A stretch of 34,535 nt of DNA. Origin: an uncultured Bacteroidota bacterium (GTDB lineage Bacteria; Bacteroidota; Bacteroidia; Bacteroidales; F082). The notes beneath the pieces were generated by a model that was not told the DNA's origin, searched no databases, and saw nothing but the letters and a program-made list of their open reading frames with translations. Positions 2,453-22,405 of this stretch are shown here, piece by piece (positions within the stretch are counted from its first letter, which is position 1; each line of letters begins with the position of its first letter). The position numbers and the translations under genes are program-made. Location: the NCBI GenBank assembly GCA_913055825.1, contig CAJXKB010000031.1, positions 1-34,535 of the forward strand. The letters are read 5' to 3'.

Positions 2453-3088
2453 ATGATTAACAATTTACCTGCCAACACAGTAGAGCGATTGAGTTTATAC
2501 CGCCGGATTTTACTCAATTTTCCCATTCAGGAAAAACCCAACATCCACTCCCATCAACTGGCACATTTGTTAAAAATTAATCCGGCACATGTCCGGCGCG
2601 ATTTGATGCTTATCGGTTTTACAGGTGATATCCACAAAGGATATGACATTCAAAGCTTGATTAAAAGCATTGGCCAGGCCATCGACTGTATACACATACA
2701 AAAAGTTGCATTTGTGGGGATTGGTGATTTGGGCCGTGCAGTGGCCGATTATTTTAACCATCAGGATGCTAAATTGAAAGTAGTAGCTACTTTCCGGATT
2801 AATGATGAACCAACTGTACAATTTCAGGATGTAAAATGTTACAACATTTCACGTATGAAACAAATCATGCGAAAAGAAAAGATTGAACTATGTGTGCTGG
2901 CTGTTCCTTCCTCTTTTGCAGAAGATATTTCCAAGGTTGTTATTGATTCCGGAGTAAAAGGGATTCTGAATTTCACCTCTGTACACCTGAAAGTTCCTGA
3001 TACCATTTATATCGAACATTACGATATGATCAGTAAGCTTGAAAAACTGGCCTACTTTACTAACAAAGACAATTGCCCTGGAAAATAA
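2453..3088 (+). CDS. rex: Redox-sensing transcriptional repressor Rex
   Basis: A 211-residue protein of standard Rex length. The N-terminal winged helix (about 1-75) carries the family signature AHVRRDL at 45-51 followed by GYDIQSL. A Rossmann domain follows with GIGDLG at 89-94, and the C-terminal hallmark ILNFTSVHLKVP is present with the swapped helix at the end. Rex proteins bind TTGTGAA-N4-TTCACAA operators and release DNA when NADH/NAD+ rises. A matching operator sits in the hox/hyp intergenic region, making those operons the likely targets. One oddity: the end of the second Rossmann strand reads ATFRIND, so Arg115 replaces the Asp found in the AFD/LFD motif of Rex proteins I know; this could alter NADH versus NADPH recognition. 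The gene is convergent with the hydrogenase operon. A few copies of Rex per genome are possible, so this may be a specialised paralog. Confidence 0.9.
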   Translation: MINNLPANTVERLSLYRRILLNFPIQEKPNIHSHQLAHLLKINPAHVRRDLMLIGFTGDIHKGYDIQSLIKSIGQAIDCIHIQKVAFVGIGDLGRAVADYFNHQDAKLKVVATFRINDEPTVQFQDVKCYNISRMKQIMRKEKIELCVLAVPSSFAEDISKVVIDSGVKGILNFTSVHLKVPDTIYIEHYDMISKLEKLAYFTNKDNCPGK

Positions 3089-3183
3089 GAAGCGGCCGTT
3101 ACTGATTTTGGTTAATCAAATAACAGGTTGATTATCAAACTATAGAAACCTGTACAAACTGTCCGGCAAACAGCAAGGCATGG

Positions 3184-3248: not shown

Positions 3249-4256
3249 TCAATATTTATTATACCGTTCAAAATCGCGCTTCATATACTGGATTCGTTCA
3301 AAACTGGCTTCTGCCGTCTGGTAATCAAGTGATTTACCACGAAAATCATCAATTTTTTCAAAATGATGTTGTTGCATCCATTCCTTTAAACCTTTTAGCA
3401 ACTCGGCAATATATGGAATACCATTTTGATACAGCGTACTGCAAAGTTGCACGGCTTGTGCCCCCACCAACAGCTGCTTAACCACTCCCGTATAAAAATG
3501 AATTCCGGTGGAAGCCACCAAATCGCAATTGAGGTGATTTCCTTTCATCAAGGCAATCCACCGCAGGGGCAGGCTGGCTTCATCGGGTGATGAAAATTGT
3601 TCATCGGCCACCACTTTTAAACTGTCAATGTCGATATCGGGACGGAAGTAGCGGTTAAAAAGAACCAGGCCATCGATTCCATTCTCCACAAGTCGTGAGA
3701 CAATGGAACAAATATTTGTAAAGAAATGCCCAAGCTTGATGGAAACCGGGATACTCACTTCTTTCTTCACTTTTTTCAAAATATCCACATATAGATTTTC
3801 TATTTGCAAACTGTTCATGGAATTGTTGAACGGAAAAATAGAAATATTCAGCTCCAGGGCATCGGCACCGGCGGCTTCAATTTCGTGAGCAAATTTGGGC
3901 CAGCCTTCGGCACTCATACAATGAATGCTGGAGATAACCGGAATTTCCGTGTTTTCTTTCACCGTTTTTACAAACTGAATATATTTTTCCAGTTGTTCTT
4001 CTTTGGAAAGGTTTACCACCACTTCTTTGGCTTCCGGAAACCAGTAATAAGCTTCACTTTCTTTGCCGTTTTTCAGCCGGGCTTCCGATTGCAAAACCAT
4101 TTGCTCCTCAAAGATAGATTTTAGCACGATGGCCGATGCACCATAACTCTCACATTGCTTAATGGTTTCCAAGTTACCGGTAATCCTCGAGCTGCTGATA
4201 ATCAGGGGATTTTTCAGTTTCAATCCCATATAAGATGTTGATAAATCGATATTCAT
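3249..4256 (-). CDS. Dihydroorotate dehydrogenase-like flavoprotein, last gene of hydrogenase operon
   Basis: A 335-residue FMN-dependent TIM barrel related to class 1 dihydroorotate dehydrogenases (PyrD). Family features include the N-terminal MGLKLKNPLIISSSRIT strand, GADALELNIS, and a C-terminal phosphate-binding region around ASTGIHFYTGVVKQLLVGAQ. In class 1 PyrD the active loop after ELN is LSCPN with a catalytic Cys; here it reads ISIFPFN with no Cys, so true dihydroorotate oxidation is doubtful. It starts 2 nt after the maturation-protease stop, so it is almost certainly co-transcribed with the hydrogenase. Related DHOD-like proteins are annotated beside redox enzymes in other bacteria. 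A role passing electrons between the NAD(H)/hydrogenase system and an unknown substrate is inference. Confidence 0.8.
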   Translation of the reverse strand: MNIDLSTSYMGLKLKNPLIISSSRITGNLETIKQCESYGASAIVLKSIFEEQMVLQSEARLKNGKESEAYYWFPEAKEVVVNLSKEEQLEKYIQFVKTVKENTEIPVISSIHCMSAEGWPKFAHEIEAAGADALELNISIFPFNNSMNSLQIENLYVDILKKVKKEVSIPVSIKLGHFFTNICSIVSRLVENGIDGLVLFNRYFRPDIDIDSLKVVADEQFSSPDEASLPLRWIALMKGNHLNCDLVASTGIHFYTGVVKQLLVGAQAVQLCSTLYQNGIPYIAELLKGLKEWMQQHHFEKIDDFRGKSLDYQTAEASFERIQYMKRDFERYNKY

Positions 4257-4258
4257 AT

Positions 4259-4732
4259 TTAGTGATTTGAAGGTTGTAAATCGGACTGTTTGATTTGCTG
4301 TTTCAAAAATTGCATGGCAGCGTTTTTATTTTCCTGTGCCTTAGGGGTCAGGGTTTCCTTAAAATCCCATTCAAAGCCTTTGATATGAAGCAAATAGGTC
4401 TCGGGGCTTTTTTGAAACAAATCCTTGCACAAATAAAGTACATAGGCCGGTGAAACGGCATGCATGGTAAATTCGACACGGGCTTTCGCTGCATCTACTT
4501 TTGTAAAAGAAAACTGTTCAATGGGTTCTTTTGAAGCATCCACAAAAATCACACTTTCATAAGCCGAAATTTTCTCCGCATCTTCAATGTTGAGTTGGTA
4601 ATTGGAATCGGTATGGATATTTTTTATGTCTTCCTGTTCAATCCATCGCTGAAAATCTTCCACAAAAGAGGTACCCAGGCCGTCGTCCATGCGGCCCGGG
4701 TTACCATAACCATATAAAAGCGTCTTGACCAT
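4259..4732 (-). CDS. hoxW: [NiFe]-hydrogenase maturation endopeptidase (HoxW/HycI type)
   Basis: A 157-residue protease of the HybD/HycI/HoxW family, which removes a C-terminal peptide from the hydrogenase large subunit once nickel is inserted. The N-terminal GYGNPGRMDDGLG contains the conserved GxGNxxxxDDG with the first nickel-sensing Asp; VDAS and MHAVSP supply the later Asp and His positions. Its substrate should be the HoxH encoded immediately upstream, whose C-terminus has the cleavage context DPCLSCATH/ALG. Start and the hoxH stop share one base (TAATG), implying translational coupling. Assignment to HoxW rather than another member of the family rests on context. Confidence 0.9.
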   Translation of the reverse strand: MVKTLLYGYGNPGRMDDGLGTSFVEDFQRWIEQEDIKNIHTDSNYQLNIEDAEKISAYESVIFVDASKEPIEQFSFTKVDAAKARVEFTMHAVSPAYVLYLCKDLFQKSPETYLLHIKGFEWDFKETLTPKAQENKNAAMQFLKQQIKQSDLQPSNH

Positions 4733-6186
4733 TAGCTTTTCATTTTATGAGAGAGAATCTGATTTTGAGCATCAACCAAAGTCATTTCCAGCGGCATTTG
4801 TCCCAGGGCATGGGTGGCACAACTCAGGCAGGGGTCGTAGGCCCTGATGGCCACTTCCACGGCATTCATCATGGGTTCGGTAATGTCTTTTTGGCCATTC
4901 ATAAAAGCCTTTGCCGTACTATTGACTGCCCGGTTCATGGGTTCGTTGTTGTTGGTAGTCGAAACAATCAGATTCGCCATGGTAATAAGGTCGTTATCAT
5001 CTATTTTATAATGATGAAACAACGTACCTCGCGGTGCTTCAATTACTCCGACTCCCTCATGCTGTTTGGTGCCTTTTACCACCAAATCTTCATTTTGGAG
5101 ATCAGAATCATGAAGTAATTCACGGATAGATTCGGCAGCATAAAGCACTTCAATCAAACGGGCCCAATGATAATGCAGCGTCATGTTGTCGGGTTTGCCA
5201 TGAGTATAGGCTTTGTATTCTTCAAAAGCCTTTTGTGCCAGTGGCGTGGGGATAAAATCGCAAGTGTTCAAACGTGCCAGCGGGCCTACACGGTACCAGC
5301 CTTTTTCCTTACCGAGATGTTTTAGGTAGGGAAATTTCATATAACTCCAATTCCTGACTTCCTCCTCAATGTAATGGTTATAATCCTGACAATCTACATC
5401 ATCCAAAATTCTTTTCCCTTCAGCATCAACGGCACGCAACACCCCGTTGTAAATATCGAGTGCGCCGTCTTTACGTACAATGCTCAGGTGGTTGGATGGA
5501 AAATCAGCAAAATTATCCACCATTGCCTGGTTATTTTTATGATAATGTTTAAAGAAATCGAGGGCACCCAGCGACCAGTCTACCATTTTATCTGCATTCA
5601 GCGGGTCAGGCCCTTTCAGCAACTCATCACGTTCAGCAATACTCAGGTTTTTGTTTATCCCCCCGGGTACAGCACCTGTTCCGTGGATTTTTTTACCGGC
5701 CGTAAGCCGGATAACTTCCTGGCCGAATTTACGCATCATCACACCCTGTACGGCTAAATCACGGTTTTCCTGTGCCACGCCGACAATATTCCGCAAAGCG
5801 GGATCGCCATCAATCCCGAAAAGGAAATCAGGGGATGATAAATGGAAAAAGTGCAGCACATGCGATTGAAAAAACTGCCCGTAGTGCATCAGCCGGCGCA
5901 TTTTTTCACCGACTGCCGTAAGTCCGTCACCGGTACCCGCACCCACAATTACATCCAGCGCTTTGGAGGCTGCAATGTGGTGGCTTACCGGGCAAATTCC
6001 ACACAAGCGTTGTACTAATACAGGAGCTTCCCAATAGGGCCGGCCCTGCACAAAACGCTCAAAACCCCTAAATTCTACAATGTGTAATCGCGATTCTTTT
6101 ACCTGTGCCTCTTCGTCCATGTAGATGGTGACTTTTCCGTGGCCTTCCACGCGGGTTACAGGTTCTATGGTTATCTTTTTTGACAT
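4732..6186 (-). CDS. hoxH: NAD-linked [NiFe] hydrogenase large subunit HoxH
   Basis: The 484-residue catalytic subunit, splitting or forming H2 at a NiFe(CN)2CO centre. The N-terminal L1 motif RLCGICPVSHH provides Cys62 and Cys65; the C-terminal L2 motif DPCLSCATHALG provides Cys453 and Cys456. The DPCxxCxxH/ALG context is that of group 3d (bidirectional, NAD-coupled) enzymes. Cleavage after His459 would remove a 25-residue tail (ALG to KMKS) by the downstream protease. Length matches HoxH of the Cupriavidus and cyanobacterial enzymes. No Tat signal or membrane anchor is present on its partner HoxY, so the enzyme should be cytoplasmic. The gene lies 12 nt after hoxY in a tight leftward operon. 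Confidence 0.96.
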   Translation of the reverse strand: MSKKITIEPVTRVEGHGKVTIYMDEEAQVKESRLHIVEFRGFERFVQGRPYWEAPVLVQRLCGICPVSHHIAASKALDVIVGAGTGDGLTAVGEKMRRLMHYGQFFQSHVLHFFHLSSPDFLFGIDGDPALRNIVGVAQENRDLAVQGVMMRKFGQEVIRLTAGKKIHGTGAVPGGINKNLSIAERDELLKGPDPLNADKMVDWSLGALDFFKHYHKNNQAMVDNFADFPSNHLSIVRKDGALDIYNGVLRAVDAEGKRILDDVDCQDYNHYIEEEVRNWSYMKFPYLKHLGKEKGWYRVGPLARLNTCDFIPTPLAQKAFEEYKAYTHGKPDNMTLHYHWARLIEVLYAAESIRELLHDSDLQNEDLVVKGTKQHEGVGVIEAPRGTLFHHYKIDDNDLITMANLIVSTTNNNEPMNRAVNSTAKAFMNGQKDITEPMMNAVEVAIRAYDPCLSCATHALGQMPLEMTLVDAQNQILSHKMKS

Positions 6187-6198
6187 CTTTTTCTGGTT

Positions 6199-6747
6199 TT
6201 AATCAAATTTAATGACTTCGTAGGGTAAGTCCATTTCGTTTCCGGTAATCAAAGCATACAAGGCATTCCAGATTAAATCGGCCCTGGGAGGACATCCCGG
6301 CAGGTAATAATCTATTTTCACCACCTCGTGGCATGGGTAAACTTTATCTAACAAAATGGGTAACTCTTTGTCGTTGGGAATAATTTTTTCGGTATTCTCA
6401 CCCACGGTAACTCCATCAATATAAGCTTCCCGTAAGCACTCTTCTATGGGGATGCCATTGCGCATGGCCGGCAAACCACCCATGATGGCACATTCGCCCA
6501 ACGAAACCAAGATGTTGCAATTTTCACGGAAATACCTTAAAATCTCCACATTTTCACTATTACAACACCCTCCTTCAATGATGCCAATGTCCACCGGACG
6601 TGAAAACTTTTTGATATCGTCGATGGGCGATTTGTCAAATTCTACGAGTTCGATGAGATCCAAAATCCGTTCATCGATGTCAAGGATAGACATGTGGCAC
6701 CCAAAACAGCCGGCCAGTGATGTTGTTGCTATGATTTTTTTGTTCAT
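6199..6747 (-). CDS. hoxY: NAD-linked [NiFe] hydrogenase small subunit HoxY
   Basis: A 182-residue small subunit carrying the proximal [4Fe-4S] cluster that takes electrons from HoxH. Candidate ligands are Cys14 and Cys17 in GCFGCHMS, Cys86 in SLGECA, and Cys152 in the LPGCPPRADLIW motif. The short length, lacking the C-terminal two-cluster extension and the Tat leader of group 1 enzymes, is typical of HoxY, and homology to NuoB of complex I is expected. The start at 6747 lies 11 nt after hoxU and needs no alternative. Together with HoxH it forms the hydrogenase module that docks on the HoxEF-HoxU diaphorase. Confidence 0.95.
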   Translation of the reverse strand: MNKKIIATTSLAGCFGCHMSILDIDERILDLIELVEFDKSPIDDIKKFSRPVDIGIIEGGCCNSENVEILRYFRENCNILVSLGECAIMGGLPAMRNGIPIEECLREAYIDGVTVGENTEKIIPNDKELPILLDKVYPCHEVVKIDYYLPGCPPRADLIWNALYALITGNEMDLPYEVIKFD

Positions 6748-6758
6748 ATCTGCTTTTG

Positions 6759-7454
6759 TTAAGATTCAATTTTACTGCCAATGGGTTCTTTGTCGTATTT
6801 GCGTGTGCCAATGGGCTCGTGAAATCCCAGCTCTTTGTAAATAATGGAACCCACGGGGCAATTTTCCATGGCTTTTTTAGCCAGTTCATCGGTAATTTCT
6901 TTGCCCAATATTGGATCGAGTACCACGCGCAAATCTTTGCCCCGGTCTTCGTAAGCAAAGAAATGCCGGCCATCCTCATCTACAATGGTTTTCATGCATC
7001 GCTGACAAGCGATACAACGATTTTGTTCTTTGATAATTTTGGGACTGCTCGAATCAACCTCTTTCCGTGGAAAATCGTAAGGATAGCGTGGCACCATCAT
7101 TTTAAAGCGATAAGCCAGTGCCTGTAATTCGCAATTGCCGCTTTTCTCACAAGCCGGGCAAAAATGATTACCGCTTACAAAAAGTAGTTCTATGATACTT
7201 TTTCGGATGTCGTTCAGCTCATCCGTGTTGTTTTCAATGTCCATCCCATCGGCTACCGGAGTCGTACAGGAGGTCATCATGCGATGATTTATTTTTATGG
7301 TACAGATCCTGCACGCACCTTTGGGTTTTACCCCCGGCATATTGCAAAGCGTGGGAATAAAAACCCCATTTTCGCGGGCAGCCTCCACAATGGTTTTGCC
7401 CCTTTCGGTAATGATTTCCTGACCGTCTATTCTTATTTTAACTTGCTGATTCAT
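6759..7454 (-). CDS. hoxU: Diaphorase iron-sulfur subunit HoxU
   Basis: A 231-residue electron-transfer subunit homologous to the N-terminus of NuoG. Residues 1-75 form a ferredoxin-type [2Fe-2S] domain with Cys37, Cys48, Cys51 and Cys63. GNHFCPACEKSGNCELQ (95-111) is the HoxU-type cluster segment, with the NHFC variant of the complex I HxxxC motif. Cys147, Cys150, Cys153 and Cys199 make a further [4Fe-4S] site. The protein wires HoxEF to HoxYH. It lies 12 nt downstream of hoxEF and 11 nt upstream of hoxY. The family also contains the gamma subunits of other NAD(P)-linked hydrogenases, but neighbours and motif spacing favour HoxU. Confidence 0.93.
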   Translation of the reverse strand: MNQQVKIRIDGQEIITERGKTIVEAARENGVFIPTLCNMPGVKPKGACRICTIKINHRMMTSCTTPVADGMDIENNTDELNDIRKSIIELLFVSGNHFCPACEKSGNCELQALAYRFKMMVPRYPYDFPRKEVDSSSPKIIKEQNRCIACQRCMKTIVDEDGRHFFAYEDRGKDLRVVLDPILGKEITDELAKKAMENCPVGSIIYKELGFHEPIGTRKYDKEPIGSKIES

Positions 7455-7466
7455 ATCTTGATAAAT

Positions 7467-9347
7467 TTAAAAACTATGTAATGATGCCTTCCGGTGAGTA
7501 AATTTGGCTGAAGCCTGAATGGATTTCTCCAAATCGAATCCGGTATCAAAATCGGTTAAGCTTTGGATATACTGTTCGTACAGATGCCTGAAGTTAAAGA
7601 TGGAAGACAAAATGGGATTGCCTGCGGTTTGTCCCAGGCCACAACGGCTGGCCTTAAGTGTCTTTCCCCAGCTGAGCAGATCGTCGATATCTTTGCGGAC
7701 GCCATGACCATCAAGGATCTTCTGCAATTTGTTTTTCATGACAAAAGGCATGTTACGACAGGTGGAACACGAACCACAACTTTCCTCAATGAAAAAATCC
7801 ATAAAGTTCATCACTACATCTTTAAGCAAGTCGCGATGTTTATTGAAAATAATGATAGATCCCCCGGTGGGCAAATCGGAATAGCTCAACCTCCGGTCAA
7901 AGAACTTTTCAGCGATCATCATCCCTGAAGGTTTGTACCATTTCATCAGCTCGTTGCTGTTTAGGTTGTTAAAATCTTTTACTCCAATGAGCATTCCTGA
8001 CGGGCCTCCCACCTGGATAGCCTGAACTTCTTCAGCACCACACATCTCGATAACTTCTTTGATACTGGTACCCCATTCCACTTCGTAAATTCCCGGAAAT
8101 TTGCAATCGCCTGAGATACTTAGCAGCTTGGTGCCCAATGAGTCTTTAGTGCCAAATCCGGTATACCAGTCGGCCCCATGATATAAAATCTTAACTACGG
8201 TAGCAAGGGTTTCCACATTGTTTACAATGGTTGGATATCCCAGATAGCCTTTTTCCACAGGAAACGGTGGCTTGTCGCGAGGTTCTCCGCGTTTCCCTTC
8301 AAGCGATTCAATCAAAGCCGACTCTTCACCGCAAACATAAGCCCCGGCACCCAACTGAATGCGAATGTCAAAATTGAAATCGCTGATGCCGGCAACTTTT
8401 TTACCCAAAACACCTATCGCACGCATCTCGTCCAATTTGCGGTTTAAGAATTTCAGTAAATATTTATATTCATGTCGTAGGTAGAGCAAACCAATATCGG
8501 CACCCGTGGCATAAGCGGAAATCACCATTCCCTCAAATACCATTTCAGGGTATTCCGTCAACATCACCCGGTCTTTAAAAGTGCCCGGCTCGCCTTCGTC
8601 GGCATTACAAATAATCACCTTGTGTTCACCTTCTATTTTTCTCCCGAAACGCCACTTCAATCCCGTGGGGAATCCGGCACCACCCCTTCCGCGAAGGTTT
8701 GAAGCTTCTACTTTATGAATCACATCTTCAGGCGAAACATCTTTCAGCTTTGTTTTTAACACCTCATAAAAAGGGTAGTCCTTTTTCAAAATAATTGACT
8801 TTTTGCGAATGTGGTTATACACCATCGAGTGCACGTCAGGGTCGCTGTTGTTCCCATCTCCGTGGTTTTCATAAATTAAATCGTCCAATGCCTGGCCCGA
8901 TTTTAATCCCTTAATTAGTTCGTGAACACGGTAAGGTGTGAGGTTAGTGAAAATTTTTCCATTGATGATGGCTGCAGGATCCTGGTCGTTCATCCCAATG
9001 CAAGAAGTGTTGAACAAGCCGAATTGACCGTCTTCACTGACTTGGCCAAATTCAATGTCGCAATCCATTTCAAAAGCTTCTTTTACAGATTGCCTGTCGC
9101 GCATGACCGATGTAATACTGTTGTTTAGATAAATATTGTACCTGGCCAACGGCTTCATGGAAAAAAAATGGTAAAAACTGATGGTTTCCCTGATACTTGC
9201 CCCCGACTGGTTGAGTATTTTGGCAAGGGTATCCACCTGATCGTCACTGACATGATTTTGTACTTCATGCAGATCCAAAAGGATATCCATCAAGCGTGTG
9301 GGATCATTGTTATACCTGGCTGCAATTTTTTTTGTTAAATCCTTCAT
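7467..9347 (-). CDS. hoxF: NAD(H)-binding diaphorase subunit, fused HoxE/HoxF type
   Basis: A 626-residue fusion of a NuoE-like thioredoxin-fold domain (about 1-145) and a NuoF-like domain (about 175-600) that binds FMN and NAD(H). NuoF hallmarks are RGRGGAGFPTGLKW, CNADEGEPGTFKDR, GAGAYVCGEESAL and the [4Fe-4S] motif CGSCSTC with a distal Cys in SRCGLG. I choose the ATG at 9347, not the one at 9434, because a promoter-like box and a Rex operator fall between them and homology begins near MKDLTKK. In the NuoE-like part three of four [2Fe-2S] ligands are replaced: Asn75, Ser80 and Asn120, with only Cys116 kept, so this cluster is probably absent. I recall a similar cysteine loss in Cupriavidus HoxF. 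First gene of the hydrogenase operon; it oxidises or reduces NAD(H) in the cytoplasm. Confidence 0.93.
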   Translation of the reverse strand: MKDLTKKIAARYNNDPTRLMDILLDLHEVQNHVSDDQVDTLAKILNQSGASIRETISFYHFFSMKPLARYNIYLNNSITSVMRDRQSVKEAFEMDCDIEFGQVSEDGQFGLFNTSCIGMNDQDPAAIINGKIFTNLTPYRVHELIKGLKSGQALDDLIYENHGDGNNSDPDVHSMVYNHIRKKSIILKKDYPFYEVLKTKLKDVSPEDVIHKVEASNLRGRGGAGFPTGLKWRFGRKIEGEHKVIICNADEGEPGTFKDRVMLTEYPEMVFEGMVISAYATGADIGLLYLRHEYKYLLKFLNRKLDEMRAIGVLGKKVAGISDFNFDIRIQLGAGAYVCGEESALIESLEGKRGEPRDKPPFPVEKGYLGYPTIVNNVETLATVVKILYHGADWYTGFGTKDSLGTKLLSISGDCKFPGIYEVEWGTSIKEVIEMCGAEEVQAIQVGGPSGMLIGVKDFNNLNSNELMKWYKPSGMMIAEKFFDRRLSYSDLPTGGSIIIFNKHRDLLKDVVMNFMDFFIEESCGSCSTCRNMPFVMKNKLQKILDGHGVRKDIDDLLSWGKTLKASRCGLGQTAGNPILSSIFNFRHLYEQYIQSLTDFDTGFDLEKSIQASAKFTHRKASLHSF

Positions 9348-9377
9348 AAAACGGAGATATGGTTTAAAAAATTCATC

Positions 9378-9385
9378 TACATTTG
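9378..9385 (+). promoter_or_regulatory. Candidate -7 box for the hypFCD operon
   Basis: TACATTTG fits TAnnTTTG exactly and ends 2 nt before the Rex operator, so the transcription start would fall inside the operator. No good -33 TTG is visible at the expected distance. The leader to hypF would be about 85 nt. Confidence 0.45.
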
Positions 9386-9387
9386 CA

Positions 9388-9405
9388 TTGTTATTATTTT
9401 CACAA
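9388..9405. promoter_or_regulatory. Putative Rex operator between hox and hyp operons
   Basis: TTGTTATTATTTTCACAA matches the known Rex consensus TTGTGAA-N4-TTCACAA at 12 of 14 defined positions, with correct spacing and one perfect half-site. It sits between the divergent hydrogenase and maturation operons, directly bounded by TAnnTTTG boxes on both strands. A Rex gene is encoded about 6 kb away in the same locus. Binding would cover both predicted transcription starts. Confidence 0.7.
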
Positions 9406-9413
9406 CAAAAATA
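9406..9413 (-). promoter_or_regulatory. Candidate -7 box for the hoxEF-led operon
   Basis: Read leftward this is TATTTTTG, an exact TAnnTTTG match, directly abutting the Rex operator. The predicted start lies within the operator and gives a leader of about 50 nt to the ATG at 9347. The -33 element is weak. Confidence 0.45.
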
Positions 9414-9476
9414 ACTGTTTTTTTGTAAATTCATTAACAGCTATTGAATTTATAATGAATTTAAACTAATCAGCTT

Positions 9477-11744
9477 TTGAAAGAGGCCAGAGAAATATGG
9501 ATTAAAGGACTTGTGCAAGGGGTCGGATTTCGCCCGTTTATTTACAAACTGGCCTTACGCCATGGCCTGAACGGGCATGTTGAGAATAATAACCTCGGGG
9601 TGAGAATTGTGGTGGAAGGATTGGAAGAAAATATAAAAGCCTTTGTTCAAAACATTCAAAAAGAAGCCCCGCTGGCTTCTTCCATCGAAAGCCTGAATGA
9701 AATTGATATTCCGGCCAACGGGTTTAGTGACTTTAAAATTACCCCAAGCCGTTCGCTTTCAGGTGAAATTACTGAGGTAAGCCCTGATATCGCTGTTTGT
9801 GATGACTGCTTACGCGATATGAAAGTGCAATCTCACCGCATTGACTATCCTTTTATCAATTGCACAAACTGCGGGCCCCGCTTTACCATTACCCGGGCTT
9901 TACCTTATGATCGGCCCATGACCACGATGGCATCTTTTAAAATGTGCGGGCAATGTAACAAAGAATATTCCGATGTACTCGATCGTCGTTTTCATGCCCA
10001 GCCCATTGCCTGCGACACATGCGGACCACATTATTTTATGTGGGACGGAGGAAAAGAGATTGCCGATTTCGGGCCATTGCGGGACAAAACAGCCCATCTG
10101 TTGGATACCGGTAAAATATTGGCCATTAAAGGAATGGGTGGCTTTCATCTGGCCTGCAATGCGCTGGATGAGCAAGCTGTAAGCCGCTTACGCCGAAAAA
10201 AAAACCGTGAAGCCAAACCGCTGGCTGTGATGTTTCGCGATTTGGAACAGGTAAAAAAATATTTGCACATCAGTGAAGCAGAAGAATCGTTACTGCAAAG
10301 TTGGCGAAAGCCTATTGTTTTGTTAAAGCAAAAACTTGAGCTGCCCCTTTCACTGAGTCGTGGTTTAGATACGCTTGGCGTAGTGCTCCCATATATGCCT
10401 TTCCACTATTTATTATTTGAAAAATTGAAGACTCCGGCCATTGTGCTCACGAGCGGTAACCTTTCGGACGAGCCGGTTTTGATTTCAGATGAAGAAGCAC
10501 GCAAACAATTGGCCGGGGTAGCGGATGCTTTTGTTGGCTACAACCGTGAAATATACAATCGTGCCGATGATTCTGTGGCCATGGTGGTAAATGGAAAAAC
10601 AAGGCTGATCAGACGATCGAGAGGCTATATCCCGTCCCCCATCCGGCTGGAATTTGATGCCGAAGGCATATTTGCCACCGGCGCCGAGTTGGTGAATTGT
10701 TTTGCTATGGGTAAAGGGAAACAAGCATTGATGAGCCAGCATATCGGCGATCTGAAAAATCCCGGGACTTTAAGTTTTTATAAGGAATCCTTTGAGCGCT
10801 TTAAAGGACTGTTCAGATTTTCACCCCGGCAGGTGGTGGCCGACCTGCATCCCGATTATCTCTCTACCCGTTTTGCCGAAGATTTAAAGCTTCCGTTGGT
10901 GCAGGTGCAGCATCATCACGCACACATCGCCTCCTGCATGGCTGAACATGGGTTAGATGAAAAGGTCATCGGCATAAGTCTGGATGGCACAGGTTTGGGA
11001 ACCGACGGGAAAATTTGGGGTGGGGAAATCCTGATTTGTAACTTAAATACCTTTGAACGGCTTTCACATTTGGAATATATTCCGCAACCCGGCGGTGATT
11101 TGGTGACGCACGAACCCTGGCGCATGGCCGTTTCTTATTTGGTCCAATCGTTGGGAATAAACGAAACACAAAAATTGTATCCGGATTTATTCCCCGGAAC
11201 GAGCCAGGCAGCCTTTGAGACTGTGATGATGATGCTCGATAAAAAGTTAAACTGTCCCGAAACCAGTAGCATGGGCCGGCTATTTGATGCCGTGGCTGCT
11301 CTCACCGGCATTTGTCAGTTTTCGAGCTATCATGCTGAAGCCCCCATGCGGCTTGAATCGACTGTAACGGAAGGGGTATTTGGTGTCTATCCGTTTAAAA
11401 TCAGGGAAGGAGACATTTCGGTAATCCCCATGTTACAGGAAATTGTAAAGGATAAACTATCAGGAATTCCGGTCGGTATTATTGCTGCTAAATTTCATCA
11501 TACCGTGGTGAAAATGGTGGTAAAAGCGGTGCATCAAATATCCCGCCACAGCGGCCTAAAAAAAATTGTACTTTCGGGAGGTAGTTTTCAAAATAGAATT
11601 TTGTTGGAAAACATTGAAAATCAGCTTGTCGAAAAAGGACTTCGCGTGTTTGCACATGAAAAAGTCCCCTCTAATGATGCAGGTATTGCGCTGGGGCAGC
11701 TGGCCATTGCCGCCAAAAGAAGTGAAAATAGAAAAAGTGAGTAA
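9477..11744 (+). CDS. hypF: Carbamoyltransferase HypF, hydrogenase maturation
   Basis: A 755-residue HypF, full length. It makes the thiocarbamoyl group that becomes the CN ligands of the NiFe site, from carbamoyl phosphate and ATP. Domains in order: acylphosphatase (about 1-90, VQGVGFRPF); paired zinc-finger motifs, CDDC with CTNC and CGQC with CDTC (about 105-185); a YrdC-like domain (about 200-380, KGMGGFHLACNA); and a Kae1/TobZ-like C-terminal domain with QVQHHHAHIASC and GGSFQNRILLE. The start is TTG: an in-frame stop lies five codons upstream (9462), no ATG is available, and homology begins at once (REIWIKGLVQG). It heads a rightward hypF-hypC-hypD cluster whose promoter region holds the Rex operator. 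HypE, its partner, is not encoded in the window. Confidence 0.95.
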   Translation: MKEAREIWIKGLVQGVGFRPFIYKLALRHGLNGHVENNNLGVRIVVEGLEENIKAFVQNIQKEAPLASSIESLNEIDIPANGFSDFKITPSRSLSGEITEVSPDIAVCDDCLRDMKVQSHRIDYPFINCTNCGPRFTITRALPYDRPMTTMASFKMCGQCNKEYSDVLDRRFHAQPIACDTCGPHYFMWDGGKEIADFGPLRDKTAHLLDTGKILAIKGMGGFHLACNALDEQAVSRLRRKKNREAKPLAVMFRDLEQVKKYLHISEAEESLLQSWRKPIVLLKQKLELPLSLSRGLDTLGVVLPYMPFHYLLFEKLKTPAIVLTSGNLSDEPVLISDEEARKQLAGVADAFVGYNREIYNRADDSVAMVVNGKTRLIRRSRGYIPSPIRLEFDAEGIFATGAELVNCFAMGKGKQALMSQHIGDLKNPGTLSFYKESFERFKGLFRFSPRQVVADLHPDYLSTRFAEDLKLPLVQVQHHHAHIASCMAEHGLDEKVIGISLDGTGLGTDGKIWGGEILICNLNTFERLSHLEYIPQPGGDLVTHEPWRMAVSYLVQSLGINETQKLYPDLFPGTSQAAFETVMMMLDKKLNCPETSSMGRLFDAVAALTGICQFSSYHAEAPMRLESTVTEGVFGVYPFKIREGDISVIPMLQEIVKDKLSGIPVGIIAAKFHHTVVKMVVKAVHQISRHSGLKKIVLSGGSFQNRILLENIENQLVEKGLRVFAHEKVPSNDAGIALGQLAIAAKRSENRKSE

Positions 11745-12043: not shown

Positions 12044-13126
12044 ATGAAATATATTGATGAATACCGCGATAAAGAGATTGCGCAATCGCTGGCAAAGCAA
12101 ATTGCGGAAATTTCTACCCGGCCGGTGAAGCTGATGGAAGTTTGCGGCGGGCATACAATGTCGATCCAAAAGTTTGGCATTCCCGGTTTGTTGCCCGAAA
12201 CTGTGGAATTAATTTCGGGGCCCGGCTGCCCGGTGTGTGTTACAAGCCGTAGTTATATTGACCGTGCCATCGCGTACAGTCGCCTTGATGATGTTATTAT
12301 CACCACCTATGGCGACCTTATCCGTGTACCTGGTTCATCCTCAACCTTGGAAAAAGAAAGAGCCAAAGGAGCCAACATTCAGGTTGTCTATTCCATTATG
12401 GATGCTTTGCTGGTTGCCAAACACAATCGCCGGAAAAAAATTGTTTTCCTTGGTATCGGCTTTGAAACCACTGCGCCCGGAACGGCTGCAGGCATATTAC
12501 AAGCCAAGGTGGCCGGCATCTTTAACTTCTACGTTTACAGTGCACACAAAGTAATGCCCCCGGCCATGGAAGCACTGATTGACGAAGGTGTCAAAATTAA
12601 CGGCTACATTGGGCCCGGCCATGTGAGTACCATCACCGGAAAGGGCATTTATGAAAACATCCCTAAAAAATACGGACTGGGTGTGGTAATCAGTGGTTTT
12701 GAACCTGTGGATTTGATGCAAACCATTTTGATGCTGGTCAGACAAATTGAAAACAACAACCCCAAGGTGGAGATTGAATATACCCGCGCTGTGAAACCCG
12801 AAGGCAATGTGAAAGCGCAGCAAATGCTCGATGAAGTTTTCGAACCGCGTGATGACTGGTGGCGTGGATTGGGCGTATTAAAAGATAGCGGACTGAAAAT
12901 TAAAAAGGAGTACGAACGGCATGATGCCGAAGTGATGATTCCCAATGTGGAAGTGGAACCTCTGGTGGAACCCAAAGGCTGTATTTGTGGAGCAATCCTC
13001 CGCGGAGTGCAAAAACCAAAGGAATGTCCTTTGTTCGGCAATGTTTGTACACCGCTCAACCCCGTTGGTTCGTGTATGGTATCCAGCGAAGGGGCCTGCC
13101 AGGCGTACTATTTGTACAATAGGTAA
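12044..13126 (+). CDS. hypD: Hydrogenase maturation protein HypD
   Basis: A 360-residue iron-sulfur scaffold on which the Fe(CN)2CO unit is assembled with HypC. Conserved segments are MEVCGGHTMSI, with the thiol-bearing CGGHT motif, GPGCPVCVTS, and the GFETTAPGTA region. The C-terminal cluster-binding region, starting near GCICGAILRG, holds the CPLFGNVC cysteines and a final GSCMVSSEGACQAYY. Nothing is missing for function. It ends the cluster, facing the convergent ABC transporter gene 36 nt away with no obvious hairpin terminator between them, only a short AAAGTTGGAAAAGTTGG repeat. hypA, hypB and hypE must lie elsewhere if the hydrogenase is matured. Confidence 0.96.
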   Translation: MKYIDEYRDKEIAQSLAKQIAEISTRPVKLMEVCGGHTMSIQKFGIPGLLPETVELISGPGCPVCVTSRSYIDRAIAYSRLDDVIITTYGDLIRVPGSSSTLEKERAKGANIQVVYSIMDALLVAKHNRRKKIVFLGIGFETTAPGTAAGILQAKVAGIFNFYVYSAHKVMPPAMEALIDEGVKINGYIGPGHVSTITGKGIYENIPKKYGLGVVISGFEPVDLMQTILMLVRQIENNNPKVEIEYTRAVKPEGNVKAQQMLDEVFEPRDDWWRGLGVLKDSGLKIKKEYERHDAEVMIPNVEVEPLVEPKGCICGAILRGVQKPKECPLFGNVCTPLNPVGSCMVSSEGACQAYYLYNR

Positions 13127-21145: not shown

Positions 21146-22405
21146 ATGTTTGCTCTAATTGACTGCAATAATTTTTACGCTTCGTGCGAAAGAGTTTTCC
21201 GCCCGGATTTGAATGGAAAACCTATTGTTGTTTTGTCAAATAATGACGGTTGCGTAATTGCAAGAAGCAATGAAGCCAAAAATTTAGGCATTCCAATGGG
21301 AGCACCCGCATTTGAATACGAAAAGCTTTTCAATCATCATAAAGTTCACGTTTTTTCAGCAAACTTTGCTTTGTATGGCGATATGAGCAACCGGGTTATG
21401 ACAATACTTTCGGACTATTCGCCCCAAATGGAAATTTACAGCATTGACGAGAGCTTCTTAAAACTCAAAGGTTTTGATCTGTTCAATTTGCAATCATATG
21501 GAGAAGAAATGCGAAAAAAAGTAACTAAATGGACAGGAATACCAATTAGTGTAGGCATTGCACCAACAAAATCACTTTCAAAACTCGCCAACCGAATTGT
21601 GAAAAAATATCCCGAACAAACAAAAGGTTGTTACATTATTGACAGCTATGAAAAAAGAATAAAAGCCCTAAAATGGCTCAAAATAGAAAACGTTTGGGGA
21701 ATTGGTAGACAACACACAAAGCGTTTGCAAGCACAAAACGTGTTTACAGCTTACGACTTTACTCAACTTTCAGACGATTGGGTTAAAAACAATTTGACAA
21801 TCGTAGGTTTGCGTTTAAAACACGATTTACAAGGTATTCCAACGCTTGACTTGACAGAAGCGCAAATGAAAAAGAACATTGCAACAACACGAAGTTTTGA
21901 AACCAACTACACCAAATTTGAAGAATTAGCTGAACGTGTAAGCACTTTTGCAAGTTCGTGTGCAGAGAAATTACGCAAACAAAAGTCGTGTTGCAATTCG
22001 TTAATGGTTTTCATTCACACCAACGGACACCGAAAAGATTTACCGCAATACAGCCGAAACATTGTTGTAAAATTGCCATTCGCAACCAATTCAACCATTG
22101 AATTATCGGGTTTTGCTTTAAAAGCATTGAAGAAAATATTTAAAGACGGTTATGCTTACAAAAAGGCAGGAGTAATCGTTCAGGATTTTACACCTGAAAA
22201 CAGAATACAACAAACACTTTTTGATAATCGCAACGAGCGACACATTCCGTTAATGCAAACAATTGACAAATTAAATTTGCAATTCGGACAGCAGAAAATC
22301 CGCCTTGCTTCGCAAGACACAAAGCGGGTTTGGAAAATGAAGCAACAAAAATTGTCGCCACACTATACAACAAATTTAAATGACATTATAACAATTAACG
22401 TGTAA
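21146..22405 (+). CDS. umuC: UmuC-like Y-family translesion DNA polymerase
   Basis: A 419-residue Y-family polymerase of normal UmuC length. The palm carries the metal ligands Asp6 ([16 protein letters not shown]) and Asp101-Glu102 (YSIDESF). [15 protein letters not shown] and the helix-hairpin-helix region near [13 protein letters not shown] are intact, and the C-terminal UmuC-specific region is present. Error-prone bypass of DNA lesions with UmuD' and RecA is the family role. Codon use is AT-richer than in the flanking M1 peptidase and C1B peptidase, and the operon sits in an island with a broken nuclease gene, so acquisition by transfer is likely. A structured repeat follows directly. Confidence 0.95.

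Follow-up and report, generated by a model that had tools for sequence, protein, structure and literature searches.

The DNA analyzed here, referred to as the window, is a stretch of 34,535 nucleotides from an uncultured Bacteroidota bacterium, corresponding to contig C31 of a source genome of 3.1 Mb in 145 contigs. One gap (9348-9476) separates two divergent runs of genes, the hox genes on the minus strand and hypF with hypD on the plus strand. The genes that concern this analysis are:

2453-3088, plus strand: Rex paralogue of the clade termed Rex1, in which Arg replaces the NAD-binding Asp at residue 115; profile matches, tree and alignment
3249-4256, minus strand: dihydroorotate dehydrogenase (DHODH)-like protein, last of the hox gene run; NF005741, over cut-off
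4259-4732, minus strand: hydrogenase maturation protease; TIGR00072, over cut-off
4732-6186, minus strand: [NiFe] hydrogenase large subunit (hoxH position); NF041785, E 1.6e-118, under its cut-off
6199-6747, minus strand: hydrogenase small subunit (hoxY position); NF045875, E 1.5e-35, under its cut-off
6759-7454, minus strand: hoxU-like diaphorase subunit; NF005745, E 6.7e-54, under its cut-off
7467-9347, minus strand: hoxEF, a NuoE-NuoF (HoxE-HoxF) fusion, hydrogenase diaphorase; NCBIfam matches under curated cut-offs
9477-11744, plus strand: hypF, carbamoyltransferase, with a TTG start; TIGR00143, over cut-off
12044-13126, plus strand: hypD; TIGR00075, over cut-off

As in the HoxEFUYH NAD-linked bidirectional hydrogenase, diaphorase genes, hydrogenase genes and a protease gene occur together. 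In contrast to that system, HoxE and HoxF are fused, and the large and small subunits best match Vhu-type models, under curated cut-offs. The hoxEF reading frame extends to an ATG at 9434, but homology in relatives begins at 9347 or no more than a few residues away, and the two operator sites described below are therefore treated as intergenic.

A search for hoxEF gave 59 rows (58 loci and the window), with carriers among Bacteroidales, Bacteroidetes, Bacteroidia, Marinilabiliales and some Chlorobiota MAGs. Removal of L031, a copy of the window, and of duplicates, defined as rows that repeat an earlier row exactly over 500 bases around the start of hoxEF, left 38 distinct loci. The operator counts refer to the 31 of these, window included, in which a neighboring hypF was detected; among the other seven, six were inspected separately and L028 starts within hoxEF. 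These relatives share ancestry, with seven near-identical pairs of gaps among the loci. Within the gap of the window, the following elements were assigned:

9378-9385, plus strand: predicted hypF promoter -7 box TACATTTG (TANNTTTG), present in eight of the nine congeneric loci and in four of the other 22
9388-9405, no strand: candidate Rex operator, site A, TTGTTATTATTTTCACAA; 13/14 to the family consensus YTGTKAANNNNTTMACAR, matrix rank 1 in the window
9406-9413, minus strand: predicted hox promoter -7 box TATTTTTG (TANNTTTG), with its offset from site A unchanged in 30 of 31 loci
9423-9440, no strand: candidate Rex operator, site B, TTGTAAATTCATTAACAG; 13/14 to YTGTKAANNNNTTMACAR, matrix rank 2 in the window
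9449-9465, no strand: site C, TTTATAATGAATTTAAA, palindrome TTTAnA-N5-TnTAAA, conserved in 31 loci

Sites A and B are 18-bp inverted repeats close to the Rex operator form TTGTGAA/TTGTTAA-N4-TTCACAA/TTAACAA, and each agrees with TTGTTAANNNNTTAACAA at 12 of 14 specified positions. Within both sites, GTTAA and GTGAA are interchangeable as half-sites, the GTGAA form being that of the Staphylococcus aureus Rex consensus (PMC2883068). An earlier note, made from the letters of the window, had described a site TTGTTATTATTTTCACAA at 9388-9405 with 12 of 14 matches to TTGTTAANNNNTTAACAA, with TACATTTG on the plus strand (9378-9385) ending 2 nt to its left and TATTTTTG on the minus strand (9413-9406) abutting its right edge. 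All of this is borne out on reading the sequence; the note's count of a single Rex operator, on the other hand, is corrected to two, as site B, of equal score, lies 35 bp from site A.

When the gap (9348-9476) was shuffled 5,000 times with dinucleotides preserved, 17 shuffles contained any site of at least 13, which, along with the conservation in relatives, sets site A apart from chance; a pair of such sites at a spacing of 33-36 bp arose in 0 of 5,000. With a Rex matrix built from 42 sites outside the window's genus, position 9388 ranks first in the window (16.5 bits) and 9423 second (15.4 bits). Since 2 of 20 shuffled windows have maxima of at least 16.0 (16.0 and 19.7), chance could reach the matrix scores taken alone, and the weight therefore lies on pairing and conservation. 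Likewise, a loose pattern search of the window with two mismatches gave 35 matches against 24.7 expected, which is not telling alone. A third Rex site considered at 9332-9349 (12/14) was rejected, as it overlaps the hoxEF start codon, ranks eighth by the matrix and has no counterpart of at least 11 at the same place in most relatives; L011, L013 and L049 carry different weak matches left of site A. The third- and fourth-best matrix matches in the window lie at 3109-3126, just past the rex stop codon, and at 21628-21645, within an impB/mucB-like gene, and are probably due to chance.

The earlier note had named conservation in related hox/hyp intergenic regions as a way to check its site. Site A scores 13 or 14 of 14 against YTGTKAANNNNTTMACAR in all 31 loci with divergent hypF and hoxEF, and the pair, with both sites at 12/14 or better, recurs at 33-36 bp in 29 of the 31, compared with 0 of 3,100 shuffles over all loci. 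The two exceptions, L009 and L015, have a site B of 11/14. Among the six loci lacking a detected adjacent hypF, four have the pair at 35-36 bp before hoxEF, so that the pair tracks the hox promoter; in the other two, L025 and L026, the Rex sites are 89 bp apart.

The sequence TAnnTTTG at -7 is given as the consensus of the sigma-ABfr-type Bacteroidota promoter (PMC7366714), and the boxes and transcription starts were assigned by this consensus. The predicted hox -7 box abuts site A in every locus except L015. Site A spans the predicted hox start, while site B lies over the predicted -33 region, such that the two sites bracket the hox promoter and overlap its elements. In the window's genus, site A also spans the predicted hypF start, as the plus-strand box to its left is present in all of the nine congeneric loci other than L052. 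An alternative plus-strand box, 77-79 bp to the right of the start of site A, is found in none of these nine loci and in 18 of the 22 others. Given that the left box is mostly restricted to the genus and the right box is found in most other loci, the position of the hypF promoter seems to have shifted around operators that remained in place. The proposal of the earlier note that both starts fall within site A holds for this genome, and its suggestion that one dimer could block both operons fits the window's genus (8 of 9 loci), though not most other relatives, with the left hypF box in 4 of 22.

With a probability of about 85%, the gap is a bidirectional control region in which two Rex operators bracket the hox promoter and a rise in NADH lifts repression by Rex. 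A Rex dimer at site B would cover the -33 region and a dimer at site A the transcription start, with the -7 box lying between them. When NAD+ is plentiful, Rex would occupy both sites and keep RNA polymerase off. When NADH rises, Rex would leave, the hydrogenase and the Hyp maturation proteins would be made, and electrons would be discharged as H2; the cell thus probably makes the hydrogenase when NADH builds up. In the window's genus, where the hypF start would have moved into site A, two -7 boxes face each other across one operator and a single dimer could shut off both promoters; in most other relatives, hypF would be served by a separate box to the right, past sites B and C. Rex control of the hydrogenase region is, at the level of sequence comparison, well supported. 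A point against it is G011, a genome with a Rex of the Rex1 type alone, in which the gap between hypF and hoxEF has no site of at least 13.

Beyond the hox region, the exact motif has 57 sites in 10 relatives (14 of them hox sites) compared with 3 control matches, the control being matches of the reversed pattern. In 19 other relatives, per-genome counts give 90 sites compared with 5 control matches, resulting in 147 compared with 8 over 29 relatives, hox sites included in both figures. Forty stretches were examined, which hold 41 of the 43 non-hox sites from the 10 relatives (two G001 sites were left out). By eye, from the first residues of the neighboring genes, a redox, fermentation, nickel or rex gene adjoins the motif in 27 of the 40. 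These neighbors include genes for methylmalonyl-CoA epimerase, methylmalonyl-CoA mutase, gcvP, glutamate dehydrogenase, acetyl-CoA synthetase, a biotin carboxylase-like protein, P5C dehydrogenase, NqrA, a succinate dehydrogenase cytochrome-like protein, a flavin-dependent NAD reductase-like protein, a DHODH-like protein, a nickel transporter, a NikR-like protein and rex itself (G009 and G016). In the other 13 stretches, no redox gene was recognized beside the motif by eye; five share a porin-like gene and eight were unplaced. In the window's own genome, the motif with one mismatch gives 30 matches against 20 in the control, which is weak genome-wide evidence there; of its two exact sites, one is at a methylmalonyl-CoA epimerase-like gene and the other at a carboxyltransferase gene, ten genes near the motif matches of this genome having been named by Pfam. 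In a congener, two exact motifs 34 bp apart (L140, G002:C1:1125186-1125237) precede a gene that by eye is NikR-like, an arrangement that suggests redox control of nickel regulation.

At least one Rex is encoded in all 37 genomes checked, comprising hoxEF carriers and a few others. Of 59 rex places found, all but G033:C55 could be aligned, and the tree of these 58 divides into a housekeeping clade of 35 and the Rex1 clade of 23 with support of 100/100, albeit with long branches for G011_C67, G000_C17 and G017_C75. The housekeeping Rex of the window's genome is encoded on contig C17, with a Rex-type site at its own gene. In this clade, a site of at least 12/14 starts no more than 125 nt before the rex start codon in 33 of 35 cases (G023 and G001 being the exceptions), and in 27 of 35 a motif copy starts 17-31 nt ahead of it. 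Within 250 nt upstream of the rex1 genes, none of the 23 has a site of at least 13 and one has a site of 12; the window's rex1 has none of at least 12 in the same range. Among the 11 rex1 neighborhoods examined, out of 23 rex1 genes, nine have a nickel transporter-like gene upstream in the same direction (by eye). Eight of these nine transporter-like genes have a site near their start, of 14/14 in G017, G024, G035, G057 and G043 and of 13/14 in G010, G047 and G063, with none in G016. The absence of a site directly before rex1 therefore says little, and the notion that Rex1 is not autoregulated was dropped because genes upstream of rex1 bear these sites.

In L294-L299 and L306, rex1 comes after a nickel transporter-like gene that has a Rex motif close to its start, and an outer-membrane barrel-like gene separates the two in some cases; beside the window's rex the transporter is missing. 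The gene divergent from the transporter-rex1 pair in G043 and G063 resembles, by eye, the gene at 88-2301 of the window (F5/8 type C), suggesting that the window may have lost a nickel transporter beside its rex.

Twenty-seven genomes were matched by contig to the 31 loci, L019, L021, L022 and L023 being loci without a matched genome. Rex1 is present in 16 of the 27 and a housekeeping Rex in 26; the remaining genome, G047, has no detected housekeeping Rex in an assembly that is 88% complete. The 11 genomes that carry the operator region and lack Rex1 have assemblies 86-98% complete and include G054, a member of the window's genus. The earlier note had proposed redox control by the Rex encoded at 2453-3088. 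The Rex-type operator, on the evidence of the motif, its neighbors and the sites at rex genes, is upheld, as is the joint control of hydrogenase and maturation genes; the choice of the local Rex as regulator is not, since its clade is missing from 11 of 27 genomes, whereas the housekeeping clade is represented in 26 of 27. The simplest candidate for the regulator is the housekeeping Rex encoded on C17; Rex1 may read these sites as well.

Like canonical NADH-sensing Rex, the protein encoded at 2453-3088 has the Rex domains (NF003995, 173.4 bits with a cut-off of 126; PF06971 and PF02629, over cut-off), and Rex1 retains GxGxxG and the equivalents of Thermotoga maritima Tyr100 and Asp191. For T. 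maritima Rex, the contacts to the ADP part of NAD are described as including Asp115 and Lys120; Tyr100' and Asp191 have roles in switching, and Arg48 and Lys49 read DNA (PMC8836258). By sequence alignment, the window's Rex has Arg115 and Pro120, and thus lacks the combination of Asp115 and Lys120 expected of an NADH sensor, while the five solved Rex aligned there have Asp115. Of the 23 proteins in the Rex1 clade, 22 have Arg and one has Lys at position 115, and Lys120 is absent from 22; in the housekeeping clade, Asp115 and Lys120 are each present in 35 of 35. Asp115 is also found in all 29 Rex from other families of the order, among the matches listed, which are 43-48% identical to the window's Rex; 52 of 119 genomes (the window's included) had a match. 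The recognition helix is altered as well, with Asn43, Ala45 and His46 in Rex1 compared with Thr43, Val45 and Gln46 in housekeeping Rex, though Arg48 and Arg49 are kept in 23 of 23 Rex1.

Arg at such a position is often seen in NADP-binding Rossmann proteins. On this ground, Rex1 could tentatively be viewed as a hydrogenase- and nickel-linked paralogue with a rebuilt pocket, sensing NADP(H) or no longer sensing NADH, with operators in common with the NADH-sensing housekeeping Rex; from sequence comparison this is conceivable, if doubtful. If true, a single pair of hydrogenase operators would report on two pyridine-nucleotide pools. The S. aureus Rex is described as unresponsive to NADPH (PMC2883068).

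A further possibility is that Rex1 is the main reader of the operators and a dedicated hydrogenase repressor. Its proximity to hox in several relatives, the sites in eight of the nine transporter-rex1 arrangements (by eye) and the retained Arg48 and Arg49 would agree with such a role, as would G011, whose only Rex is of the Rex1 type and which has a single exact motif, 130 nt ahead of a hydrogenase small-subunit-like gene. However, with 8 control matches per 29 genomes this single site could be chance. Together with the 11 genomes lacking Rex1, including the congener G054, the divergent residues at positions 43, 45 and 46 and the absence of a site of at least 12 within 250 nt before the window's rex1, this makes a leading role for Rex1 rather unlikely.

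The palindromes could also be used by another type of protein, or act as RNA. CRP/FNR-type regulators can bind similar palindromes, and TGTGA-N6-TCACA resembles their sites. In addition, a Crp-like motif is reported for ArcR of S. aureus (PMC2883068), which counts for a regulator of this family in place of Rex. Nevertheless, the motif copy 17-31 nt before the start codon of most housekeeping rex genes and the presence of Rex in every genome checked argue against it. So does the main operator form at these loci, TGTTAA-N4-TTAACA, which we take to be a Rex-type form, and control by a CRP/FNR-family protein is considered very improbable. Even less likely, and barely credible, is that the inverted repeats act as hairpins in RNA leaders rather than as protein sites. 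In the window's genus, sites B and C would sit in the hypF leader if transcription starts within site A. However, as site A straddles the predicted starts, each transcript would include no more than a portion of it. In addition, the predicted hypF transcript would begin beyond sites B and C wherever the right-hand box is present (18 of 22 loci), and the motif recurs at unrelated promoters.

The proposed control of the region by Rex, through two operators around the hox promoter, has counterparts in other phyla. The Rex of Caldicellulosiruptor bescii represses NiFe and FeFe hydrogenase genes (PMC6391272), and S. aureus ldh1 has two Rex sites (PMC2883068). The Rex regulon of Firmicutes and Thermotogales (for example C. 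bescii, S. aureus and T. maritima) shares with the present one an 18-bp repeat of the TTGTGAA-N4-TTCACAA type, an autoregulated rex, and hydrogenase and fermentation targets (PMC6391272; PMC2883068; PMC8836258). The system here differs from that regulon in its Bacteroidota promoter boxes (TAnnTTTG), in the divergent arrangement of hypF and a diaphorase-linked NiFe hydrogenase, in the almost constant spacing of sites A and B (33-36 bp) around the promoter, in its propionate-pathway neighbors and in a second Rex clade. Searches of an open-access library showed no title or abstract on Rex control of hydrogenase in Bacteroidota or on an NADP(H)-sensing Rex, which is weak evidence of absence as subscription papers were outside the scope. 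With these findings, a Bacteroidota family would join the groups in which Rex governs [NiFe] hydrogenase, and its operator pair is defined precisely enough for testing. Furthermore, the position of the hypF promoter can be seen to change around apparently fixed operators, and a Rex clade with a changed NAD pocket is singled out in which cofactor switching can be tested.

In site C, the remaining element of the gap, 11 of the 12 named bases are invariant over the 31 loci, and the first base is kept in all but one. It is also present in loci without the right-hand hypF box and, by eye, without a detected adjacent hypF. Its center lies about 55-60 bp upstream of the predicted hox start, and it probably either binds a different regulator, perhaps an activator or a metal-responsive one, or forms an upstream part of the hox promoter. 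Over 13 genomes and both strands, the pattern has 34 matches, at least 7 of which are hox sites, compared with 2 for the control, and by eye no coherent set of neighbors was seen in 30 loci. The palindrome TTTAGA-N5-TCTAAA (34 sites compared with 6 control matches in 10 genomes) was considered as a relative of site C and not linked to it, as it occurs near SOD-like, MarR-like and acyl-CoA dehydrogenase-like genes (by eye, 18 loci). In two congeners (L259 and L260), TTTAGA-N5-TCTAAA stands 35 bp before a MarR-like gene and is a possible autoregulatory site.
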